Positions 12,107 through 31,087 of a stretch of 33,430 nucleotides of DNA are shown here, piece after piece. How positions within the stretch are numbered: the first letter of the stretch is position 1; every line of letters begins with the position of its first letter. Position numbers and translations under genes: made by a program. The notes under the pieces were generated by a model. The model saw only the letters and a list, made by a program, of their open reading frames with translations, made no database searches and was not told the DNA's origin. This DNA is from Phycisphaerae bacterium (GTDB taxonomy: Bacteria > Planctomycetota > Phycisphaerae > UBA1845). The stretch covers positions 1-33,430 of the forward strand of contig JAJDDX010000123.1 of assembly GCA_029260055.1 (NCBI GenBank), given 5' to 3'.

Positions 12107-13795
12107 TTACCCTCGCGGGTGTCCTTGAGGCTTCCAACGATGCAGGAGATCGCTGTAGCGCTCACGCCAATCTCGGATCTCCCCGCGCACATAGTCTTCA
12201 CGGATGGCCGGATCCTCGAAGCTGAAGACGTCGCGGGCGCATCCATCTATCTCGATGGTCTCCGCCTCCGGCACCGGAAGAGGGCCACGCTCCGACTCCC
12301 AGTCTCGCACGGCCTCCCAGGCGGTCGGATCGCTCAGTTCGAGCAAAGCTGCCCGCGCCTCGTGGGTCTCTTCAAAACGTGTGTCGCGCAGCCGCTCGAG
12401 CAAGGCGCGCTTGGCTCCCTCAGTACCGATCGTCGCCAAGGCAGCAGCGGCTTCCACACGGTCATTGGGGACATCGCTGCGGAGTGTATTCCCTAGCCAT
12501 CGAATCCCGTCGCTCTCGTCGAGCAGGTACAACAGGAACGCCGCCGGTGGATGGCAACGGTCCGGGAACACCGACCGGGAACGGCAACGCTCATCGCTTG
12601 TCGTCAGGACCCCGACCAAGCACCTCCGAATACGCTCCGCCGGGGCCCGGCCAAGTTCGGGTTCCGTTGTCTGACGAATCTCAGGCCTGGCGCCGGTTCC
12701 GGGAACAGCCGCGTCCCGTTCATCCGTTGGAATGTGCCGTAGGAGGATCTCACATGCACGCACGCGCCAAGCAGGCACGGGGCCGCCGTCGCTCGGCTCT
12801 CGCTCGATCAGATCGAGCAGGAGCGGATTCAGCGACGGATCGTCCCATGCGGCAACAATCTCGAGGGCCAGCGGAACGGCACGATCCGCGGGGGTCTCGG
12901 TCAAGAGCACCCTTACGTCCTGCTCCACCGCCCCGCGGCCAAGAGCAGCGGTCGCAGCCAAGAAACTCCCGCCCGTAACCTCGCCCGCGCCCTCTCTCCT
13001 TCGTTCTCGTAGCGTCGTCATCCGTTCACCGATCTGCGAGTTTGCGTGAGCGCTAACGAGTCCGGTCACGGGGTGGCTTCCACGTCCGGCTAGCATGCTC
13101 GCAAGCACGTAGTCGCCAACCGATACCGCGAGATACACGGCTCCGCCCACGCTGCCCGAATCGGAGTCATCTGCGCCGTCACAGAGGCGTTGGACAATCG
13201 GCTCGATTCGCTCGCACAACTCGAGGCCGAGGCTCGCTACCTCAATCCGCTCCCCCTCCACCAGTAGCCCGAGTCGTCGCAGGGTCGGGACATCGACGCA
13301 CCAAGCGTCCTCCAGCGGCGGTGCGTGCGCCACAAGCCGCTCCGGTAGCGCCGGTTTCTCGAGCGAGTCGAGGAAATTACCGAAGAAGAACGGATCGACG
13401 ACGTCACATCGCCCATCAACGAAGTCCACGTCGATCACCGTCCCGTCGATACGACTCGTCAAGCAGCAACCGCATCCGTGGAAGAAATACTCCCACTCCG
13501 GCATCCCGGGAACGAGGCCTTCCTGATCCCGGTGTTGCGGGTGCCCGAAGGCCCCCATGTGCTCTATGGCTTCAAGATCGCCGCCCAAGCGCTCCGTCAC
13601 GACTCTCGCGACCCATTCCTGGCGCTCCCGGTAGCGCACCAGGGCCACGAGCAACCACAGCGCCCATCGATCCACGCCGGTGATCATAGGTGTTCGCAAC
13701 CGAGTCTCGGTCAACCCCTGAAGAGCGGGCGGCTCCGCCTCGGCCTCGTGTAGGACCCTGCGGACATCGTCGCGTTCGGGAAGAAGAATTGACAT
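12107..13795 (-). CDS. Uncharacterised 562-aa protein with HEAT-like C-terminus
   Basis: I do not recognise this protein as a whole. The N-terminal half has RWALWLLVALVRYRERQEW, a segment EWEYFFHGCGCCLTSRIDG, and IDVDFVDGRCDVVDPFFFGN. The HGxGC...DGxxIDxDF pattern faintly recalls DUF6896-like small domains, but that is a weak impression. The C-terminal half is helical with repeat character (VEAAAALATIGTEGAKRALL, RAALLELSDPTAW), as in HEAT or PBS-lyase repeats, which usually form protein-binding solenoids. There is no signal peptide or membrane helix, so it should be cytosolic. The ATG at 13795 starts the recognisable protein; the frame stays open further upstream but has no ribosome site there. 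The gene stands alone between the tRNA-Gly fragment and tRNA-Cys. Confidence 0.75.
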   Translation of the reverse strand: MSILLPERDDVRRVLHEAEAEPPALQGLTETRLRTPMITGVDRWALWLLVALVRYRERQEWVARVVTERLGGDLEAIEHMGAFGHPQHRDQEGLVPGMPEWEYFFHGCGCCLTSRIDGTVIDVDFVDGRCDVVDPFFFGNFLDSLEKPALPERLVAHAPPLEDAWCVDVPTLRRLGLLVEGERIEVASLGLELCERIEPIVQRLCDGADDSDSGSVGGAVYLAVSVGDYVLASMLAGRGSHPVTGLVSAHANSQIGERMTTLRERRREGAGEVTGGSFLAATAALGRGAVEQDVRVLLTETPADRAVPLALEIVAAWDDPSLNPLLLDLIEREPSDGGPVPAWRVRACEILLRHIPTDERDAAVPGTGARPEIRQTTEPELGRAPAERIRRCLVGVLTTSDERCRSRSVFPDRCHPPAAFLLYLLDESDGIRWLGNTLRSDVPNDRVEAAAALATIGTEGAKRALLERLRDTRFEETHEARAALLELSDPTAWEAVRDWESERGPLPVPEAETIEIDGCARDVFSFEDPAIREDYVRGEIRDWRERYSDLLHRWKPQGHPRG

Positions 13796-14167: not shown

Positions 14168-14241
14168 AGGCGGCGGTCGGATTCGAACCGACGAATAACG
14201 GATTTGCAATCCGTCCCCTTAAACCACTTGGGCACGCCGCC
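14168..14241 (-). tRNA. tRNA-Cys(GCA)
   Basis: The minus strand folds into a full cloverleaf. Acceptor GGCGGCG pairs with CGCCGCC, the anticodon stem ACGGA pairs with TCCGT around loop TTGCAAA with anticodon GCA, and the T-arm GTCGG-TTCGAAT-CCGAC is perfect. The discriminator base is T, as expected for cysteine tRNAs. CCA is not encoded. Confidence 0.95.
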
Positions 14242-19900: not shown

Positions 19901-21235
19901 CTATCGCTGGGAGACCGTCTCGGCAAGCAGGCGCGGTGCGTTCTGGAAACCGAGCGGAAAAACGCTGTCGGAAAGCGGAGCCACCTTGAATTCCTGATCA
20001 CCCAACAGAACGATAGCCGGTGAAGCTTCATCCATCAGCGCCGTCGCGTCGGTCACGTGGTGCAGACCAAGCAGGTGCCCCGCCTCGTGAGCGGTCACAT
20101 TGCCAATCGCCACGCCGAGCGACTCAGCCGTCGGCGGAAACCCGAACACCAGCGGCTTGAACGACTCCGTAAAGACGATGCCGTTGTCGCACGTGTCTTC
20201 GTTGAAGATGTCGACGCTCTCCGAAGCGCCGAACACCCGGCCGCTGAACGAGCCGAGCAGAAGCGTCGTCGCACAGTCCGGCGGTAAGGCCATCTCGTCC
20301 GACGTAATCACGTCCACGCCGAAGCCGTCGAAAGCGTGAACCACGCGGTCGATGATCGCCTGCTTGATGATCGCCGTATCGTCCGCGTAGCGGTCCGCGA
20401 TCGCCCCGCCGTCGAACGGCTCGACCGCACTCACGCCGAGGATCGAACGGTCCAGCGTACCGCCGTCGAAATCGAGAAAGACGGTCTGCGGCCGCGGCTC
20501 GAAACGAAGCAGCTCGCGCTCGATCTCGACGTGCAGGCGATAGGATCCGATCGTGATGATGTCGTCGGGATGCGTCACCGCGAGGAAGTAGGTCGGCGAG
20601 TCGTGCCGAATCTCCTGGTCCACCACCCGCACCCGGGACGAGCCGAGGGGCACGACACCCTCCATCGCCACGAAGACCTCGCCGATCTCGTCGTATACTG
20701 CCACAACGGGGCTTAGTGCAAAGTCGACGCGTTCGAAGTCGATCACGATGCCGTCCCCTGCCTCCAGGCCACCGAGTTCGAACACGTCGATGTCACCGGG
20801 CAGGTCGATGCGACCGTAGAACGCAAGTGTATCTTCACCGACTACGTCGAGGACGACCGCTTGTCCGAACGAATCGTTGGGTTCCAGATCGTTGCCCGAG
20901 CTGAAGGAGCCCGTCGCCGCCGTCGCGGAATCGCCGAAAGGATCGTCCAGGTCGGATACGCCGTCGTGATCGCTATCGGTCACGAGAGGCGAGGTGCCGT
21001 CGGACAGCTCGACACCGTCGGTGACCCCATCGCCGTCCGTATCCCGATCGTCGGGATCGGTGCCGATGGACCGCTCGAACACATCGGTCAGCCCGTCAGC
21101 GTCCCGGTCTGCCTCAACGCCCATCGCATTGAACGTGGCAGGACCGCATCCACTGACCAGCACAGCCAACTGCACAGCAGCCAAGGCCAACCCGCGAAGG
21201 CTGATCACTATCCGCCGGGGAGGTCTAATCATCAT
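19901..21235 (-). CDS. Metzincin-like metalloprotease lipoprotein with TSP3-like repeats
   Basis: A roughly 444-residue exported protein. A lipoprotein signal (IRPPRRIVISLRGL, hydrophobic core, LVSGC) precedes calcium-binding thrombospondin type 3-like repeats (DRDADGLTDVFE, DRDTDGDGVTDGVE, DSDHDGVSDLDD). A beta-sandwich resembling bacterial pre-peptidase C-terminal domains follows (LEPNDSFGQAV ... GRIDLPGDIDVFEL ... SYRLHVEIE). The C-terminal third carries AHEAGHLLGLHH, the full HExxHxxGxxH zinc site, and a Met-turn candidate TALMDEAS eight residues later, which together indicate a metzincin peptidase. Substrates are unknown. The start overlaps the stop of the zinc-ribbon gene (GATGATGATTAG); ATG 21235 and ATG 21232 are both possible. 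Confidence 0.83.
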   Translation of the reverse strand: MMIRPPRRIVISLRGLALAAVQLAVLVSGCGPATFNAMGVEADRDADGLTDVFERSIGTDPDDRDTDGDGVTDGVELSDGTSPLVTDSDHDGVSDLDDPFGDSATAATGSFSSGNDLEPNDSFGQAVVLDVVGEDTLAFYGRIDLPGDIDVFELGGLEAGDGIVIDFERVDFALSPVVAVYDEIGEVFVAMEGVVPLGSSRVRVVDQEIRHDSPTYFLAVTHPDDIITIGSYRLHVEIERELLRFEPRPQTVFLDFDGGTLDRSILGVSAVEPFDGGAIADRYADDTAIIKQAIIDRVVHAFDGFGVDVITSDEMALPPDCATTLLLGSFSGRVFGASESVDIFNEDTCDNGIVFTESFKPLVFGFPPTAESLGVAIGNVTAHEAGHLLGLHHVTDATALMDEASPAIVLLGDQEFKVAPLSDSVFPLGFQNAPRLLAETVSQR

Positions 21236-21686
21236 CCCTGCCACGCCGTGCGGGTGTCTGATCCAAATCGCCACTCATTCGGCCACCGCACTCCGGACAA
21301 ACGCCGGAGGTGTTGCCGGTCAGATTGTAGCCGCACGACAAGCATAGACCGCGTCGACGCCGGGAACGCCCGCGGATCGACGACGGAAGACGCAGCAGAC
21401 CGGGAACGACGAGTATCGCGAGCGAGGTCAGAGAGGCGAGTGCAATAACCTCACAAATGAGCCTCCCGATGCGCACCTGGAGGCCATAATAGGAAAAGAA
21501 GCGCTTCGGGTCGCTAGGCAAGGGCATGGGAACGATGACGCGCTCAGGCGGATTCCAGAGGAAGAAACGTCCGACGTCATGGCGATAAGTGGAGTCAAAC
21601 TGCGACGCCCACCACGGCGGGAACAAGGCAGCCAGTGCGATTAGAGAAAGGCCGAGACACAGAATACGACGTTGCGACTTGCTCAT
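21225..21686 (-). CDS. Small membrane protein with CPECG zinc ribbon
   Basis: A 153-residue protein with one membrane helix at about 8-28 (ILCLGLSLIALAALFPPWW), a periplasmic or loop segment, a second helix at about 85-108 (LICEVIALASLTSLAILVV), a very basic stretch (RGRSRRRRG), and a C-terminal zinc ribbon CLSCGYNLTGN...CPECG. The CxxCGYxLxG...CPECG tail is extremely common in planctomycete membrane proteins, but its role is not known. ATG 21686 is chosen because the recognisable protein starts there; the open frame upstream runs through an intergenic repeat. It is the first gene of a minus-strand cluster with the metzincin-like protein, whose start overlaps its stop. Confidence 0.75.
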   Translation of the reverse strand: MSKSQRRILCLGLSLIALAALFPPWWASQFDSTYRHDVGRFFLWNPPERVIVPMPLPSDPKRFFSYYGLQVRIGRLICEVIALASLTSLAILVVPGLLRLPSSIRGRSRRRRGLCLSCGYNLTGNTSGVCPECGGRMSGDLDQTPARRGRDDD

Positions 21687-21787
21687 ACCACCGTTCCCGA
21701 CTCGTTGCAGACAAAGGACTACGGCGTTTCCATTATGCCATCGCTTCGGCTTCGGACAATCCCGAAACGACCATGGGATGGAAACCC

Positions 21788-21864
21788 GGGTGGCATGGGC
21801 AAACTCGTTTCCCGTGCTTATCCCGGTTTCGACACGGGCAAGCTGCTGCTTGTCCATGCCACCC
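21788..21864 (-). repeat. Cloverleaf intergenic repeat, copy 1 (reverse orientation)
   Basis: Outer stem GGGTGGCAT / ATGCCACCC encloses two arms. Read in reverse these are an arm with AAGC-AGCA-GCTT and an arm with AAC-GA-GTTT, separated by a GTG...CAC middle arm. It is the reverse complement of the copy at 23683 with a few substitutions, some of which weaken the arms. It lies upstream of the zinc-ribbon gene. The following 283 bp up to the next gene hold no gene. Confidence 0.8.
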
Positions 21865-21922
21865 AGCATGTTCGGCTAGCGGCGCGTGTCAGGCGGAGTC
21901 CATCTTCTTATCAGGACGAAGG

Positions 21923-21937
21923 ACCCCGCTGCGGGGT
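21923..21937. repeat. Palindrome ACCCCGC-T-GCGGGGT
   Basis: A perfect 7-bp dyad around one base in the divergent region between the zinc-ribbon gene and the propeller lipoprotein gene. It could be a hairpin (ACCCC-GCTGC-GGGGT) or an operator. No T run follows on either strand. Confidence 0.3.
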
Positions 21938-22162
21938 TGGCCGGGCCGTCCCGTTCGGTTAGCCTGTTCGCACGTGCGACGCGTGACATTCGAACAAATC
22001 AGAGCCGCGTCGCCGTGGACACGACCCATGCTGGAGGAGCCCGGTCCGTGCCGCGTGGTATGGCAGGGGCGCCGCGTGAGTGCGCCGACGAATGCCCGTA
22101 CGTGAGGGCCAACTCGAGATGATCCGGAGGAAGCCCGGGTCAATAACATGGAGAAGAAATCG

Positions 22163-23554
22163 ATGTGGAAGGCAACTAATCTGCGATGTGGTGGTTTGTT
22201 CCTGGTTGCGGTCTTCGCGTTGGTCTTGACCGGATGCACCGCCGCCCCTCCCGCAGGAAACGGCAACGCTAACGATGGAAACACCAACGCCAACGAGGGC
22301 AACGAGAACGTCAACGTGAACGACAACGCCGACGAAGACGTGACCGCCAACGCCGGCGCGCATCAGAACGTCAGCGGCGCCGAAGTGGTCCAACTCGACG
22401 CTTCGGCAAGCAGCGGCGGCGGAGACGCCGGACTCAGTTTCTCGTGGATCCAGACCGAGGGCACCCCTGTGGCGCTAACCGGAGACAACACGGCCACGCC
22501 GAGCTTCACGGCCCCGAATTTGGACGAGACGCTCACCTTCGAGGTGACCGTCGATGGCGGCGGGGGCAATGTCGATGCCGACACCGTCGACGTGAATGTG
22601 ACGGCTCTGTCGGCAACCCTCTTCGTCGTCAACAACAATCAGCCGATGACCACTTACGACGACGCGACCGCGCTGGACGGTGAAATCGCCTTTACCACCC
22701 GCTTGAACCTCGGAAGCGCCACGTCCCTGTTCCAGCCTCGCTCGCTCGTGGTAACCCGCACCGGAAGGCTCCTCGTCAGCAGGCAAAACGGAGGAATCGT
22801 GGGATACGATTCCGCGCTGACCGCCACGGAGGACACGCCGGCCGACATCGTCACTGAGGGCGACAACTCGGGACTCGAAAGCCCCATCTCATTCGCGTAC
22901 GACGCGACGAACGACCGCCTCTACGTCGGCGACGCCAACGCCGACGGTGGCATCCTCGTCTTCGACGCCGTTTCCTCCTTCACGCTCGACGGTGATCGTG
23001 CCCCGGACCGCACTTTCGGACCTCCGGATCGCATACCGTTCAACACCGAGGCCATCACGATTTCCATGACCATCGACGCCATGGACCTCGATAGCGACGG
23101 GAACCTGTTTGTCAGCGATACGTCCGGCCTCAACGGAAACCAAAGCCGTATCCTCGTCTTTGTCGATCCCGGCACAGCCGACGGCGCCGCAGTGCCCGCC
23201 CAGGAGTTCACCAGCACGGCCTGGGACAACATCGAGGACCTGGTCGTAGACGCCAACGGTGCGCTCTACGTGGTCGCCAGCGGCGACGAGGTATGGATGT
23301 TCGCCGCTCCGACGACGCTCGAGGGAGACGTGTTGCCCGACACGACTCTCGTCGTTCAAGGTGATCGAGTCGATATCGAAGGGATCGTCGTGGGCTCCGA
23401 CGGCACGGGATACCTCGCGGACAGGGGCAACCACGCGATCTATTCGTACGACAACCTCGGCACCCTCTCCGGCACCCTCGTCCCGGACCGTACGCTGGAG
23501 GGATTCGGGACCCGCCTCAGCGGACCGCGACAGATGTTCCTCCTCGAGCAATAA
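22163..23554 (+). CDS. Lipoprotein with Asn-rich linker, PKD-like domain and NHL-type propeller
   Basis: A roughly 463-residue exported protein. The lipoprotein signal (LRCGGLFLVAVFALVLTGC) is followed by an Asn/Asp/Glu-rich linker (about 40 residues of NANDGNTNANEG type). Then comes a PKD/Ig-like beta-sandwich of about 95 residues (VVQLDASASSGGGDAGLSFS ... FEVTVDGGG), whose xLDASxS and LSFSW signatures fit PKD-type cell-surface domains. The remaining 300 residues form a propeller with NHL- or SBBP-like blades (LYVGDANADGGILVFD, LFVSDTSGLNGNQSRILVF, GYLADRGNHAIYSYD). ATG 22163 has GGAG 9 nt upstream; an in-frame ATG at 22148 has a GGAGG too far away (16 nt) but would extend the basic n-region to MEKKSMWK. 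Role unknown; probably a surface scaffold or binding protein. Confidence 0.82.
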   Translation: MWKATNLRCGGLFLVAVFALVLTGCTAAPPAGNGNANDGNTNANEGNENVNVNDNADEDVTANAGAHQNVSGAEVVQLDASASSGGGDAGLSFSWIQTEGTPVALTGDNTATPSFTAPNLDETLTFEVTVDGGGGNVDADTVDVNVTALSATLFVVNNNQPMTTYDDATALDGEIAFTTRLNLGSATSLFQPRSLVVTRTGRLLVSRQNGGIVGYDSALTATEDTPADIVTEGDNSGLESPISFAYDATNDRLYVGDANADGGILVFDAVSSFTLDGDRAPDRTFGPPDRIPFNTEAITISMTIDAMDLDSDGNLFVSDTSGLNGNQSRILVFVDPGTADGAAVPAQEFTSTAWDNIEDLVVDANGALYVVASGDEVWMFAAPTTLEGDVLPDTTLVVQGDRVDIEGIVVGSDGTGYLADRGNHAIYSYDNLGTLSGTLVPDRTLEGFGTRLSGPRQMFLLEQ

Positions 23555-23576
23555 ACACTTACCGCTATCCGACCGA

Positions 23577-23605
23577 CCCGGTGCCTGCAAGGCGCAGGCA
23601 CCGGG
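23577..23605. repeat. 12-bp perfect stem-loop 3' of the propeller gene
   Basis: CCCGGTGCCTGC, loop AAGGC, GCAGGCACCGGG. It lies 23 bp after the stop of the propeller gene. There is no T run, so an intrinsic terminator is unlikely by the standard rule. It shares the GGTGCC...GGCACC ends with the other hairpins in this window. Confidence 0.6.
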
Positions 23606-23656
23606 CCCGGCTACGGCGCAACGTTCGGGCAAGGCTGAACACTCCGGCGGGTGTGC

Positions 23657-23674
23657 CACTGCTCTTGAGCAGTG
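23657..23674. repeat. Hairpin CACTGCTC-TT-GAGCAGTG
   Basis: An 8-bp perfect stem preceded by GTGC. It is nearly identical to the hairpins at 28936 and 29140, so it is a dispersed repeat. It sits 8 bp before the cloverleaf repeat copy 2. Confidence 0.7.
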
Positions 23675-23682
23675 CTCTTGTC

Positions 23683-23760
23683 GGGTGGCATGGGCAAGCA
23701 GCAGCTTGCCCGTGTCGAACGTTGTGTCAGCACGGGCAAACAAGTTTGCCCATGCCACCC
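23683..23760 (+). repeat. Cloverleaf intergenic repeat, copy 2 (complete)
   Basis: A 78-bp element. Outer stem GGGTGGCAT (23683-23691) pairs with ATGCCACCC (23752-23760). Arm 1 is GGGCAAGC-AGCA-GCTTGCCC (23692-23711), a perfect 8-bp stem. The middle is GTG-N16-CAC (23712-23733). Arm 3 is GGGCAAAC-AA-GTTTGCCC (23734-23751), again a perfect 8-bp stem. The arms abut without spare bases, giving a closed four-way junction like a tRNA outline. It lies between the propeller gene and the epimerase gene. Confidence 0.85.
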
Positions 23761-23816: not shown

Positions 23817-24707
23817 ATGCACATAGCTGTCACCGGCGGAACCGGATTCCTCGGCAGGTATATCCTCAATCGGCTCGCCGGTAGCGGCCATACCTGTCGC
23901 TGTTGGCACCGCCTCTCGTCCGACCGTGGCGGTTTCGATGAAGTGGAAAGCCTCATCGACTGGCTCCCGGGCGATCTGACCGACATCGACTCGATGAACG
24001 CCCTGGTCGAAGGCGCCGACGCAGTCGTCCACGCCGCCCTCGACCGACCAGGAGCCGGATTCCGCGGCGCCGAAGGCGACATACCCGCCTTCGTCGAGCG
24101 CAATGTCGTCGGAACCATCAGACTAATCGAAGCCGCCCGCAAAGCCGAGGTGAAGCGTTTCATCTTCATCTCGACTTGTGCCGTACACGAACGCATCCTT
24201 GATGACCGCAAGCTCGACGAAGCTCACCCGCTCTGGCCCGCGTCGCATTACGGCGCCCACAAGGCCGCCATCGAGAAGTTCATCCACAGCTACGGAATAG
24301 GCAACGGCTACGACATCTGTTCGCTCCGCCCGACCGGCATCTACGGCCTGGCTCGCCCGGCACCGGGAAGCAAATGGTATGACCTGGTCCAATCGATCAA
24401 GCGCGGCGAGCCCGTGTCCAGCCCGCTCGGCGGCAAGGAGGTCCACGCAGCCGACGTAGCGAAAGCGGTCGACATCCTCCTGACAGCAGACGGCATAGCG
24501 GGTGAAGCCTACAACTGCTACGACATGTACATCGCCCACCAACAAGTCGCCACGATCGCCAGGAAGATCACCGGAAGCGATAGCACCATCGACATGACCA
24601 ACAAGGGCCCGAAGCACCAGATCGACACCTCGAAGCTTCAGGCACTAGGCATGACGTTCGGCGGCGAGGCACTGCTCGAGCACACGGTCCGGCAAATCGC
24701 GGAGTGA
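23817..24707 (+). CDS. NAD-dependent epimerase/dehydratase-like SDR protein
   Basis: A 296-residue extended short-chain dehydrogenase. The Rossmann motif is VTGGTGFLGRYILNRL (GxxGxxG, residues about 5-20). The acidic loop GDLTDID, the VVHAAL strand, the FIFISTCAVHE strand with the catalytic-type Ser/Thr, and YGAHK (YxxxK) are all present, followed by LRPTGIYGLARP, as in sugar-nucleotide epimerases. The substrate cannot be read from sequence; the C-terminal half is short for a UDP-sugar epimerase, so a reductase or dehydratase on a small sugar is possible. ATG 23817 has AGGAG about 8 nt upstream and begins exactly at the Rossmann strand. The gene stands alone on its strand and converges on the transporter genes. 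Confidence 0.85.
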   Translation: MHIAVTGGTGFLGRYILNRLAGSGHTCRCWHRLSSDRGGFDEVESLIDWLPGDLTDIDSMNALVEGADAVVHAALDRPGAGFRGAEGDIPAFVERNVVGTIRLIEAARKAEVKRFIFISTCAVHERILDDRKLDEAHPLWPASHYGAHKAAIEKFIHSYGIGNGYDICSLRPTGIYGLARPAPGSKWYDLVQSIKRGEPVSSPLGGKEVHAADVAKAVDILLTADGIAGEAYNCYDMYIAHQQVATIARKITGSDSTIDMTNKGPKHQIDTSKLQALGMTFGGEALLEHTVRQIAE

Positions 24708-24716
24708 GCCACCCGG

Positions 24717-24860
24717 TACGAATTGCAGGTTACGAATTACCAGTTACGAGTTACAAATGACGCGTCACATCCAGCTTGGAAAGCGACCGGACGTCGCCTG
24801 CTCACGCCGCCTGCGTAATTCGTAACTCGTAATTCGTAATTCGCTATTCGCTATTCCGTG
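24717..24860. repeat. Mirror pair of 7-bp tandem arrays between convergent genes
   Basis: The left array (24717-24765) is seven exact 7-bp steps: TACGAAT, TGCAGGT, TACGAAT, TACCAGT, TACGAGT, TACAAAT, GACGCGT. The right array (24812-24860) is the reverse complement type: TGCGTAA, TTCGTAA, CTCGTAA, TTCGTAA, TTCGCTA, TTCGCTA, TTCCGTG. Aligned as an inverted repeat, about 28 of 35 bases pair. The arms would form a long imperfect hairpin with a 46-nt GC-rich loop. It fills the gap between two convergent genes, and the right array contains the stop codon of the transporter small subunit. Confidence 0.8.
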
Positions 24861-26874: not shown

Positions 26875-27054
26875 GAATGGCTACTCGTGAAAGGGCCGCG
26901 CCAAAAACCTCGGAGAAGGTGACCTCCACGCCGGAAATATCCTACACGATAGCCCATCAGCCGCAACGGTTGCCTGAGCGCAGGTCAGCCGCTATCTTCA
27001 CGCCTTCATGTGGCCGCCCCGGCGGCAAGCGCAACCACAACCACGGAGATTCAC

Positions 27055-28905
27055 ATGCTCGCTTTCGCCCTCGACCTCGGGAAAATCGCCGGCGATATGG
27101 TGAACCTCGTATGGGGCCCATGGCTCTTCTTCCTGCTATTGGGCTGCGGCCTGCTCTTCTCCGTGATCAGCAAGTTCGTCCAGGTGCGTATCCTGACGCA
27201 CGGCTACGGTTGCATCAGCGGTAAATACGACAACCCCGATGACACCGGCCACATCAGTCACTTCCAGGCGCTTTGCGCGGCGCTGTCGGCGACGATCGGG
27301 CTGGGCAACATCGCGGGCGTGGCTGTGGCGGTCAGCGTCGGCGGACCCGGAGCCGTGTTCTGGATGTGGGTCGTGGGTGTCTTCGGCATGGCCCTGAAGT
27401 TCATGGAGTGCACGCTGGCGGTCATGTTCCGCGACGTACGTGACGTACCCGACCCCAGCGCCCCGGCACTCATGGAAAAAGACGCCGAGAGCCGCACGCT
27501 CGAATACGAGGGCGAGCAGCCGCCGGAGCCGGGAGCCAAGCCGACCGCGCGCGGCGAGGTCCGAGGCGGACCCATGTGGTACATGCAGAAAGCCCTCGTC
27601 GAGCCGCTCAAAGCTCGCGGGAACATCCTCTGGGTCGTCTTCAAGATACTGGCCGTCCTCTTCGCCGTCGCGACGATGCTCAACTCGTTCGGCGGCGGCA
27701 ACATGTTCCAGGGCTGGAACGTGTCGGACATGCTCACGCGACACGTCTTCGGAACCTACAAGGTCGCCGGGATCGAGCCGAAGTACCTTGTAGCTCTCGC
27801 GTTTTCGTTCCTGGTCGCGATGGTCATCATCGGCGGCATCAAGCGAATCGGCGAAGTCGCCAGCAAGCTCGTCCCCTTCATGTGCGTGTTCTACGTGGCC
27901 GGCGCACTGTTTGTCATTCTGAACCATGCAGCCGACGTGCCCCATTACATCGGTTTGATCTTCAAGTCCGCGTTCACGCCGACCGCCGAGGGCGGCGCGT
28001 TCGCCGGCGTGACCGTCTGGATCGCTTTCCAACAAGGCCTGAGGCGGGCCTGCTTCTCCAATGAAGCCGGCGAAGGATCAGCCGCCATGGCCCACGCCGC
28101 GGCGCAGACCGATGAGCCCATCCGCGAAGGCGTCGTCGCGGGCATCGGACCCTTCATCGATACGATCATTATCTGCACCATGAGCGCCCTGGTGCTCTTG
28201 ATCTCCGGCGTCTGGCAGCGCCCGGCCGTCGGCATTGTGGCATCGGTCGATAACGGCTCTATCGTCGTGGAACGCAACGACGACGTGCAAGAGAAGTACC
28301 AAGCACTCTACGCCGACATCGTCAACAACGACGACAAGCTGCGCGTGCAGTTGGCATCGGGTGTCGGCGTCGAGTTCGCCGACCTGGCTGTACCGATCGC
28401 CTCGGTCGACATGGGTGAAGGCGGCGCTTGGCAAGATGTCAAGACCGTGACGCTCGATGCCTCCGACCCTGACACCGTCGACCAGACGGAGGCGGCGAGA
28501 ATCCTGCCCGGCATGGAGGTCCACCTCGACATCGCCGGGGCGGACATGACCGCATTCGCGTTCGACACGACGTTCGTTGGCCTGGGCCGGTACGGCGTCA
28601 CGCTTGCCGTCTGCTTCTTCGCCTTCAGCACGATGATCTCGTGGAGCTATTACGGAGAGAAAGGCGCCGAGTACCTGCTCGGCCCCGGGGCGATCCTGCC
28701 CTACAAGTTCCTCTTCGTCATCTTCGTGTTCCTTGGCATGGTGCTCGAAGAATTCAAGACGGTGTACGACTTCTCGGATGCCACGACGGGCCTGATGGTG
28801 CTGTGCAACCTGCCGGCCGTCCTGATCCTGTCGCCGGCGGTCCTGCGCGCAGCCAAGAACTACTTCAAACGCCTAGATAGCGGCCAAATGAAGAAGTTCG
28901 AGTAG
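27055..28905 (+). CDS. Sodium:alanine/glycine symporter, AGCS family, with a large insertion
   Basis: A 616-residue AGCS transporter, where bacterial members are usually around 450-500. The family core is clear: LSATIGLGNIAGVAVAVSVG, GGPGAVFWMWVVGVFGMALK, LRRACFSNEAGEGSAAMAH, and FFAFSTMISWSYYGEKGAEY. Two extra soluble segments explain the length. The first is a polar segment at about 127-178 (PDPSAPALMEKDAESRTLEY...). The second, at about 388-500, lies between the helix ending LLISGVWQRP and the helix starting FVGLGRYGV; it has beta-rich, acidic character (ASVDNGSIVVERNDD, LPGMEVHLDIAGADM). It should import alanine or glycine with Na+. ATG 27055 has GGAG 7 nt upstream and begins just before TM1. 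Confidence 0.9.
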   Translation: MLAFALDLGKIAGDMVNLVWGPWLFFLLLGCGLLFSVISKFVQVRILTHGYGCISGKYDNPDDTGHISHFQALCAALSATIGLGNIAGVAVAVSVGGPGAVFWMWVVGVFGMALKFMECTLAVMFRDVRDVPDPSAPALMEKDAESRTLEYEGEQPPEPGAKPTARGEVRGGPMWYMQKALVEPLKARGNILWVVFKILAVLFAVATMLNSFGGGNMFQGWNVSDMLTRHVFGTYKVAGIEPKYLVALAFSFLVAMVIIGGIKRIGEVASKLVPFMCVFYVAGALFVILNHAADVPHYIGLIFKSAFTPTAEGGAFAGVTVWIAFQQGLRRACFSNEAGEGSAAMAHAAAQTDEPIREGVVAGIGPFIDTIIICTMSALVLLISGVWQRPAVGIVASVDNGSIVVERNDDVQEKYQALYADIVNNDDKLRVQLASGVGVEFADLAVPIASVDMGEGGAWQDVKTVTLDASDPDTVDQTEAARILPGMEVHLDIAGADMTAFAFDTTFVGLGRYGVTLAVCFFAFSTMISWSYYGEKGAEYLLGPGAILPYKFLFVIFVFLGMVLEEFKTVYDFSDATTGLMVLCNLPAVLILSPAVLRAAKNYFKRLDSGQMKKFE

Positions 28906-28935
28906 GGTGAATCGATGGATCCGCCGAACGGGTGC

Positions 28936-29207
28936 CACTGCTCTCGAGCAGTGTCCGGACTGGGTGCCACGGACAAGCGGAGCTTGTCCGTGCCGGTGCG
29001 GTGCGAACTCCCGCCGCCGGGTGCCACTGGTGGCTTGACCACCAGTGCCGAACCGCTGGCATGAGCCGGATGGGTGGCATGGGCAAGCAGCAGCTTGCCC
29101 GTGTCTTCACGTTGATTCCGACCGCAGGGCGCCGCGTGCCACTGCTATCGAGCAGTGTCCTACCTATACGATGGACGCCGGGTGCCACTGGTAACTTGCT
29201 ACCAGTG
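28936..29207. repeat. Cluster of five GGTGCCAC hairpins
   Basis: The 336-bp gap after the AGCS gene is packed with hairpins, each preceded by GTGC: CACTGCTC-TC-GAGCAGTG (28936-28953), CACGGACAAGC-GGA-GCTTGTCCGTG (28968-28992), CACTGGTGG-CTTGA-CCACCAGTG (29025-29047), CACTGCT-ATCG-AGCAGTG (29140-29157) and CACTGGTA-ACTTGC-TACCAGTG (29186-29207). The stems change in sequence but keep pairing, while the flanking (G)GTGCCAC...GTG(C/T)C frame is constant. A half copy of the cloverleaf repeat lies among them. Confidence 0.8.
29072..29105 (+). repeat. Cloverleaf intergenic repeat, left half only (copy 3)
   Basis: GGGTGGCAT (29072-29080), arm 1 GGGCAAGC-AGCA-GCTTGCCC (29081-29100) and GTGTC match the left half of the complete copy at 23683 exactly. 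The right half is replaced by unrelated sequence running into another hairpin. Confidence 0.75.
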
Positions 29208-29660: not shown

Positions 29661-30995
29661 CTACCCGACCGTCTCGGTCTTCTCGACAAAGCGAATGCCC
29701 AGCGTCGCCAACTCGTCGAGCACCGGCTTGTAGATCGCCTCTTGTACCGGCACGCACACGCCCGGCAGCATGATCTCACCCGAGAGGGTCATCTTGGTCG
29801 CGATGGCCACCGGCAGCGTCACCGTGCGCGCCATCGCCGAATCCCCGTCAGGCTGACCGTACGCGATCAACGTCGAAGTGATATGTTCATCCGGCGCGTC
29901 GGGGAACGTGGCCGTGAAGTAGTGGCACAGCACGACCATGTCGCGCTCGCCCGGCGCGTACGCCAACGTCCGTTCCATGCGCAACGCCAGCACATCCAGC
30001 GGGGTCGTCTCCTGCTCCGTGATTGCGATCGGCTCATCACTCAGCAGCCCCAGCCACTCGAACCGGTCCAGGATCGCCGAACCCTCCTCGATGCCGAGGT
30101 GGTCCGCGAGCCTCTTCCGAAGGTTCCCGGTCGACTCCGCATCGAATAACGTCGCCATGAACTGAGCGTGCGTGGTGCCGGCCGGGTACGTCACCGGAGA
30201 CTCGTCCAGCAAGCCGAGCTCGGCGATCTTCTTCATCGTCTCGCACCAGCCCGGATAGCGGAACGTGCCACGAAGCATCGTGTCGATACCCGCCAGGCCG
30301 TAGGTGTCAATGTAGACGAGCGAATCACGATTCGGGTAGGCATCGAGTGTGCCGAGACCCTCGACCTCCATCTGGGCGACGTTCGCGAACAGCTCCGCCC
30401 CTGGAATGTCGATCTGCTTCCCGTGCTCGCGATACCTGGCCGCGTTCTTGCCCGCCGTGCAGACGCCTCGCGGACTCCAGGAGAACTTGTAGCCCATCGG
30501 GTTGTTGTTGTCGGCCGGCGCCGGCAGGCCGCCGCAATAGGACCTGAAACTGGTGACCTTGCCACCGCGACGCTTCACGTCGTCGATGATCCTTGTCGCG
30601 GACATGTGGTCGATCCCGGGGTCAGCGCCGATCTCGTTCAAGATCATGAGCCCCTTCTCGCGGGCCTGACCGTCCAACGCCTGCATCTCGGGGCTCACGT
30701 AGGACGCAGTGACCATATGCTTGCCGTGCCGGATGCAGTACTGTGCCACCATGGGGTGCAGCGGCGCGGGCAACAGGCTCACCGCCAAGTCATGCTCGCT
30801 GACGAGCCGTCCGATCGTCTCATTGTCCCCCGCAACCAACGCTTCAGCCGCCCCGTTAGCATGGCCCTCAACCAGCGCCTCAGCCTTGCTCGCCACGCAG
30901 TCCCCCACCGTCACGCGGTAGTCCGGCTGATCGAGCAAGTAGCGTACGAGAGGACGCGTGACAAAACCGGCACCGAGGACAAGGACTTTCTTCAT
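29661..30995 (-). CDS. Saccharopine dehydrogenase (glutamate-forming) type
   Basis: A 444-residue enzyme. With NAD(P)+ it would split saccharopine into glutamate and aminoadipate semialdehyde, the second step of lysine breakdown by the saccharopine route. The Rossmann start is KKVLVLGAGFVTRPLVRYLL. Family marks are the SLLPAPLHPMVA strand (as in eukaryotic SDH), NEIGADPGIDHMSATRIID, and SYCGGLPAPADNNNPMGYKF with SWSPRGV after it. The length fits a free-standing SDH domain. ATG 30995 is chosen because the conserved fold begins there, although the frame stays open upstream. It follows the LKR gene by 92 nt on the same strand, so the two activities that are fused in animal AASS are separate here. 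Confidence 0.92.
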   Translation of the reverse strand: MKKVLVLGAGFVTRPLVRYLLDQPDYRVTVGDCVASKAEALVEGHANGAAEALVAGDNETIGRLVSEHDLAVSLLPAPLHPMVAQYCIRHGKHMVTASYVSPEMQALDGQAREKGLMILNEIGADPGIDHMSATRIIDDVKRRGGKVTSFRSYCGGLPAPADNNNPMGYKFSWSPRGVCTAGKNAARYREHGKQIDIPGAELFANVAQMEVEGLGTLDAYPNRDSLVYIDTYGLAGIDTMLRGTFRYPGWCETMKKIAELGLLDESPVTYPAGTTHAQFMATLFDAESTGNLRKRLADHLGIEEGSAILDRFEWLGLLSDEPIAITEQETTPLDVLALRMERTLAYAPGERDMVVLCHYFTATFPDAPDEHITSTLIAYGQPDGDSAMARTVTLPVAIATKMTLSGEIMLPGVCVPVQEAIYKPVLDELATLGIRFVEKTETVG

Positions 30996-31087
30996 CAGCC
31001 AGTCATCCTGTGTGTGTAGCTTCCCGGTGTCATCCACCGGCTGCGTTCGTCGAGAGGAAACAAAGTCGCACGCCCGCGGCCACGCCC

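Follow-up and report, generated by a model that had tools for sequence, protein, structure and literature searches.

A sequence of 77-78 bp occurs twice, with a half copy farther on, in the window, the stretch of 33,430 nucleotides analysed here. A preliminary description had drawn it as a cloverleaf with fully stacked arms. What kind of element is it, and what, if anything, acts on it? The letters of its hairpins match both ends of a RAYT (REP-associated tyrosine transposase) element in the same genome, which makes a miniature mobile element of an already known kind the most likely answer. The cloverleaf is very probably a REPIN of a GTGG-footed REP family, whose likely partner in trans is the RAYT on contig C400, a Y1 HUH tyrosine transposase (TnpA_REP). 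With this reading, an unexplained intergenic structure becomes a REPIN with a likely transposase in the same genome, in a little-studied bacterial group. It also suggests that REPs with GTGG and GTGC feet occur across planctomycetes, and it supplies dozens of natural foot/RAYT pairs for testing the guide-reading rule proposed for TnpA_REP.

Anatomy and abundance of the repeat

The repeated thing is a hairpin unit of about 32 nt consisting of GG, a GTGG foot, a stem of 11 pairs (CATGGGCAAGC/GCTTGCCCGTG, with one T-G pair) and a small loop. In this family, called A, the foot stands directly 5' of the stem (CATGGGC...). Two forms of the unit occur: L, with AAGC and a loop of AGCA or similar, and R, with AAAC and a loop of TC or TT. 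The element of 77-81 bp is an inverted pair of these slightly different hairpins with their feet outward. By the definition of a REP in the consulted part of PMC6006769 (GTAG or GTGG 0-2 nt 5' of a stem), family A is a REP family, while the GTGC feet of three sibling families, B, C and D, would fall outside that definition.

Both full copies and the half copy lie where the preliminary description had placed them (Table 1), and the opposite orientation it gave the full copies is confirmed by an inverted-repeat pair between them. Its 9-bp outer stem consists of the two feet plus stem bases. There is no third arm: what was taken for a middle arm, GTG...CAC, is where the two flanking stems (CATGGGC...GCCCGTG) end on the inside. 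Copy 1 is imperfect, its R hairpin being one base short (GTTTCCC for GTTTGCCC) and its L hairpin having one mismatch. An ORF on the minus strand, 21225-21869, would begin within this copy; the codon-based gene caller did not call it. The single unit of the half copy may be a decayed doublet.

Table 1. REP units and doublets in the window, with the called genes on either side
Feature	Coordinates	Strand	Flanking called genes	Remarks
REPIN copy 1 (family A)	21788..21864 (77 bp)	-	19901-21175 (-) and 22196-23554 (+); divergent	R unit 21788-21816, L unit 21833-21864 on minus strand; slightly decayed
REPIN copy 2 (family A)	23683..23760 (78 bp)	+	22196-23554 (+) and 23817-24707 (+); tandem	L unit 23683-23714 (+), spacer, R unit 23731-23760 (-)
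Half copy, single L unit (family A)	29072..29105 (34 nt)	+	27010-28905 (+) and 29661-31037 (-); convergent	Matches nt 1-34 of copy 2 in every letter
Family C unit	23653..23674	+		GTGCCACTGCTC...GAGCAGTG; just upstream of copy 2
Family C unit	28930..28953	+		GGGTGCCACTGCTC...
Family D unit	28962..28992	+		GGGTGCCACGGACAAGC...; stem as at the ends of the C391 RAYT element
Family B unit	29019..29047	+		GGGTGCCACTGGTGG...; stem as at the ends of the C344 RAYT element
Family C unit, variant stem	29136..29157	+		GTGCCACTGCTATCGAGCAGTG
Family B unit, variant stem	29180..29207	+		GGGTGCCACTGGTAAC...

Besides family A, units of all three sibling families occur in the window. At 28930-29207, within one convergent gap, all four families (A, B, C and D) are represented by a total of six closely packed REP units. 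An unrelated inverted repeat of 24 bp, 88% complementary and with 74 nt between its arms, lies at 24717-24838, directly after the epimerase gene.

The family extends through the genome. With up to two mismatches, the 15-letter head GGGTGGCATGGGCAA has 268 matches in the 7.63 Mb of the genome against 16 for a reversed control, and with up to one mismatch 216 against 1. These figures count units rather than elements, and the assembly has an estimated contamination of 4.84%. Among 118 loci, which overlap in part and in which identical elements were counted once, there are 22 distinct close inverted doublets (less than 130 bp apart), every one of them feet-out. Their lengths are 81 bp (13 doublets), 76-78 bp (six) and 91-112 bp (three). 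Twenty of them join an L to an R; in window copy 1 and in L163 the R is degenerate. A pyrimidine (C or T) precedes the foot, on either side, in 19 of the 22. Single units are no rarer than doublets, with 76 distinct ones counted. Several copies of a variant R unit (L060, L067, L174, L210, L212 and L227) have the upper stem swapped for the palindrome TCCCGGCGCGCCGGGA (GGGTGGCATGGGTCCCGGCGCGCCGGGATTTGCCCGTG).

Inverted pairs are in excess. A set of 84 stretches (0.98 Mb, 125 units) contains 22 feet-out pairs, where 500 random placements in intergenic DNA gave 1.0 on average and never more than 5. The other neighbours within 130 bp are ten tandem pairs and none feet-in. The stretches were partly picked for holding the repeat, and densities in them are therefore not estimates. 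Only 7 of the 125 units lie within called genes, against 81.5% expected from the coding share given by our own codon-based caller. The intergenic repeat family of the preliminary description is thus supported, and it is genome-wide and mostly intergenic.

A RAYT element with the same ends

A profile search gave eight REP_Tyr_transpos matches in the genome, and six of these were examined (C230, C191, C344, C391, C183 and C400). The match on C400 lies above the cut-off with 82.2 bits. It belongs to an element of 693 bp (G000:C400:16210-16902) that encodes a RAYT of 193 aa with the HxH and Y segments and has a family A unit at either end, L on one side and R on the other. The ends of this element, 32 nt on the L side and 30 nt on the R side, are letter-identical to those of window copy 2, which marks the copy as a REPIN, in effect the C400 element minus its gene. 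The C391 RAYT is bounded in the same manner by family D units and the C344 RAYT by family B units. The best sequence match of the C400 RAYT among solved structures is E. coli TnpA_REP (4ER8), a weak one (E 0.0024). The genome also holds GTAG families. An IS200-like gene on contig C64 was set aside; it fits IS200 rather than RAYT, and no GTG[GC]CA unit turned up on C64 in a search for tags. In three more distant A pairs (L183, L176 and L198), a search for RAYT remnants gave nothing above noise.

The preliminary description had named a mobile miniature element among its options, and had proposed, with other checks, copy number and a linked RAYT-like transposase. These two turned out in its favour: the copies are many, and a RAYT in the same genome is bounded by the same L and R units. 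Movement itself would follow by analogy. The doublet would be a non-autonomous pair of inverted REP hairpins, L and R, each with its GTGG foot directly 5' of the stem. On the model of TnpA_REP, as far as the consulted parts of PMC8266576 and PMC6006769 set it out, the RAYT would bind one strand of the folded hairpin in single-stranded DNA, the foot would serve recognition and the choice of cleavage site, and the RAYT would move or copy the doublet. The Marinomonas enzyme is reported to have cut GTGG substrates at CA or CC (PMC8266576), and for the C400 RAYT a cut at CC or CA would be predicted accordingly.

Among the closest known elements are the REPINs described in the accessible text of Bertels and Rainey 2011 (PMC3116915), from Pseudomonas fluorescens SBW25 and from other genomes with a RAYT. 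These share with the present elements the inverted REPs with a spacer, the predicted hairpins, the excess of doublets, the mostly extragenic location and a RAYT in the same genome. Unlike them, the present elements have halves that differ in a fixed L...R order and stems of another sequence family. Population evidence of transposition intermediates is given for SBW25; here, in a comparison of genomes more distant than close strains, neither an empty site nor an intermediate nor recent movement was seen. Units in doublets are more alike than single units in SBW25; here there is a trend at most (L 0.918 versus 0.847, p 0.051; R 0.905 versus 0.880, p 0.26).

REPtrons, in which a TnpA_REP gene is flanked by REPs, are described in the parts of PMC6006769 and PMC8266576 consulted. 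Like the C400 element they have a single gene, inverted REPs of their own family and feet, GTAG or GTGG, immediately 5' of the stem. For E. coli, flanking REPs that are unequal (Y and Z2) are recorded there. The constant L...R order of the doublets is that of the ends of the gene-bearing element, which supports a view of REPINs as gene-less REPtrons. The differences are two. The C400 RAYT clade has E-H-x-H plus WQxGGGYDRN and matches no key motif of the subclass table printed in PMC6006769, the sole basis of this comparison, and families B, C and D have GTGC feet. In the text consulted of Di Nocera 2013 (PMC3733652), GTAG- and CGTC-tagged REPs, planctomycete ones included, share the tagged palindromes, the inverted dimers, the link to a tyrosine transposase and the avoidance of divergent gaps. 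Here, by contrast, the feet are GTGG in family A and GTGC in families B to D, and the RAYTs of these families stand apart from GTAG RAYTs on the tree. No description of GTGC-footed REPs was found in the running text of the open literature on REPs, RAYTs and planctomycetes, as far as it was accessible.

The REPIN reading draws on the repeat family, the excess of inverted feet-out pairs, the constant L...R polarity, the ends shared with a RAYT element and the association of feet with RAYT clades. On the features tested, likeness in working and membership agree, with mobility itself argued by analogy. Several observations count against it, the slight likeness of units in doublets included. Related genome G031 has 11 exact A heads among the matches listed, while the four of its five RAYTs that were examined carry other ends; G047 has 9 such heads in the same listing. 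Genome G060 has a RAYT with A ends, yet just 4 exact A heads. Moreover, 11 of the 13 copies of 81 bp carry flanking arms, and these are not explained by REPIN movement alone.

Arms, placement and folding

The arm (TAGTG[CT]TC[CT]GTCA...) extends the element to a palindrome of about 133 bp. In addition, an A doublet of 130 bp (L198:5143-5272) has a B unit in its spacer, which looks like nesting. The arms and the nested unit together make more than one route of spread possible. Much of the family might have spread as a MITE-like palindrome of about 133 bp, possibly inserting at TA, by way of an unrelated transposase and with the REPIN as a passenger. The left arm, allowing up to 7 mismatches in 25, does recur at unrelated sites in those 11 copies. 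However, the window copies and the other copies of 76-78 bp lack the arms, arms without a REP unit appear in the sampled stretches only as weak matches at chance level, and no autonomous element with such arms was found in those stretches. A very strict arm pattern had one match in the whole genome. This route is rather unlikely to account for much of the family.

The placement of the units bears on a second alternative, namely that a host function at the level of RNA or chromosome (transcript ends, mRNA stability, protein binding) keeps the elements and that their mobility is past. The 96 A units between two genes comprise 66 in tandem, 20 in convergent and 10 in divergent gaps, compared with 62, 12.5 and 26% of random intergenic points; convergent gaps are enriched (p 0.02) and divergent gaps depleted (p 0.0003). 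These biases and the mostly intergenic location are what such a function would favour, and roles of this kind are reported for REPs elsewhere in the text seen of PMC3733652. The purging of harmful insertions, however, yields the same placement, and copy number and stem letters vary between related genomes. Retention for a host function is thus unlikely, and the REPIN remains the preferred reading.

Folding does not by itself single out one structure. Folded as DNA, either strand of each full copy does better than every one of 200 dinucleotide shuffles (z -4.7 to -6.0). The computed energy minimum is one long hairpin for copy 2 and a branched form for copy 1. Over 19 aligned doublets, 98.7% of cells pair in the cloverleaf, 94.7% in two hairpins and 95.3% in one long hairpin. 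What lowers the two-hairpin figure is a single R-stem pair, C-A on the top strand in 18 of the 19 copies; on its own foot strand this pair reads G-T, as would fit two units read from opposite DNA strands. No pair in any of the three models is changed on both sides, and the six changed cells of the outer stem (four unpaired, two G-U) include no compensated one. Family A is too uniform for covariation to choose among the models, and within it the case for structure is one of identity.

From one family to another the letters of the hairpin vary and its pairing stays. Strong stems stand right behind the foot in 74 of 159 units adjacent to RAYT genes and in none of 159 shuffled ones. In these 74 well-scoring units, stem pairs 3 to 9 each occur as several different standard pairs; the level of pairing is selected by this restriction, and the point lies in the variety of pair types. 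In favour of the suggestion that structure is under selection is the high pairing of the cloverleaf; against it, no compensated change occurs in the stems of family A. Compensated variety is seen in the unit hairpin, from family to family. A tRNA-like cloverleaf RNA under selection is extremely improbable in spite of the high pairing score, given that the arms are two hairpins plus feet, that compensated changes number zero, that the spacer between hairpins varies (doublets of 76 to 112 bp), that single units are at least as common as doublets (76 versus 22), and that ARAGORN and Rfam give no tRNA or known RNA at the repeats, their sole result in the window being a tRNA-Cys at 14168-14241.

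Feet, RAYT relatives and RAYT domains in host genes

Feet were assigned to 56 RAYT segments of this and related genomes, short and weak segments having been left out: 20 have GTAG, 20 GTG[GC]CA, 7 GTG[GC]CC and 5 other feet, and 4 have no flanking repeat above threshold. A branch of the RAYT tree with support 100/99 divides them into 24 (20 GTAG, 3 none, 1 other) and 32 (20 GTG[GC]CA, 7 GTG[GC]CC, 4 other, 1 none). On this tree two changes suffice for the three foot states, which is the minimum. The C400 RAYT, the C391 RAYT and one from genome G019 form a clade (100/97).

The protein differs along with the foot. Residues contacting GTAG in E. coli are numbered around 94-104 in the part of PMC6006769 consulted, and the corresponding segment was matched here by spacing rather than by alignment to the E. 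coli protein. At this segment, all 20 GTAG rows have WQxR[FY]WE[HR], 19 of the 20 GTG[GC]CA rows have F-W-[QL]-x-[GD]-G-G-[YF]-D-[RH]-[ND], and all 7 GTG[GC]CC rows have R[GA][YH]DFN. The exception, L111, sits on a long branch that carries a warning on the tree.

Feet were also called in a wider sample. For the 80 best of 125 related loci, in named assemblies, a script with a loose foot rule called 37 GTG[GC]CA, 24 GTG[GC]C, 5 GTAG, 4 other and 10 none, at a threshold of 14 (80 shuffled flanks scored at most 13). By eye, four of the five GTAG calls (L252, L274, L280 and L297) go back to a GTAG inside a unit whose foot is GTGGC; L245 is ambiguous. Counted from their titles, 64 of these 80 loci are planctomycete, and within this set the RAYTs of the present genome are closest to Phycisphaerales and other planctomycete assemblies, which points to a planctomycete. 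The RAYT of JAATGM010000004.1 has the same L and R stems as family A. Three loci with Zixibacteriota titles (L260, L288 and L304) have such a RAYT but no callable GTG[GC] foot.

Across genomes, copies of A tend to go with the RAYT's ends. The exact A head was counted in 17 genomes: the two with RAYT ends that bear it have 48 and 4 copies, and the remaining 15 have 6 between them. Another sequence, GTGGCACTGACAAG, has 36 copies in the genome of the RAYT bearing it and occurs once in 17 others.

There is about an even chance, on these data, that REPs with GTG[GC] feet make up, with their RAYTs, a specificity class of its own, which has its centre in Planctomycetota and is present also in Armatimonadota and one Myxococcales assembly, in which foot and reading segment changed together (WQxR[FY]WE[HR] with GTAG, FWQxGGGYDRN with GTG[GC]CA, R[GA][YH]DFN with GTG[GC]CC). 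If true, a single-strand transposase and its guide would be linked in nature by a code that can be read, the foot being predictable from the protein, and REPINs like this one would be gene-less REPtrons with fixed left and right ends.

RAYT domains were also seen in frame within host genes. Short in-frame REPs inside genes, tRNA synthetases included, are described in the text consulted of PMC3733652; no report of in-frame RAYT insertions was found in the running text of the open literature accessible to us. In seven genomes purH carries a RAYT domain (L322, L323, L325, L326, L327, L328 and L331 in G048, G007, G005, G030, G011, G027 and G024, respectively), at the same place in the AICARFT/IMPCHase domain, at profile positions of about 130-150. 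The reading frame is continuous in five of the seven (781-965 aa), and in G024 and G027 the contig ends in purH and the second half lies on another contig. None of the seven genomes has a second purH match, and five other genomes tested have one uninterrupted purH each. The RAYT looks like an intein-like resident of a single-copy gene; the protein may be spliced or may tolerate the insert, or the arrangement may come from assembly.

In the genome of the window, valS (L055:11506-15585, on G000:C344) has an in-frame Y1 transposase domain, with an insert at about 12844-13505 bounded by identical 25-bp inverted ends (read by eye). Its frame of 1360 aa is open throughout, and it is the sole valine--tRNA ligase over the cut-off in this genome. 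Further in-frame RAYT domains occur in an isoleucyl-type class I tRNA synthetase (L321, G048), glycine dehydrogenase (gcvP; L320, G038), an MgsA/RarA-type ATPase (L329, G044) and, by eye, a restriction-modification-like protein (L324, G029). The flanks of these four domains encode repeated peptides, for example GSIGVPPV and VAQPPPAG, which are apparently REP units read in frame.
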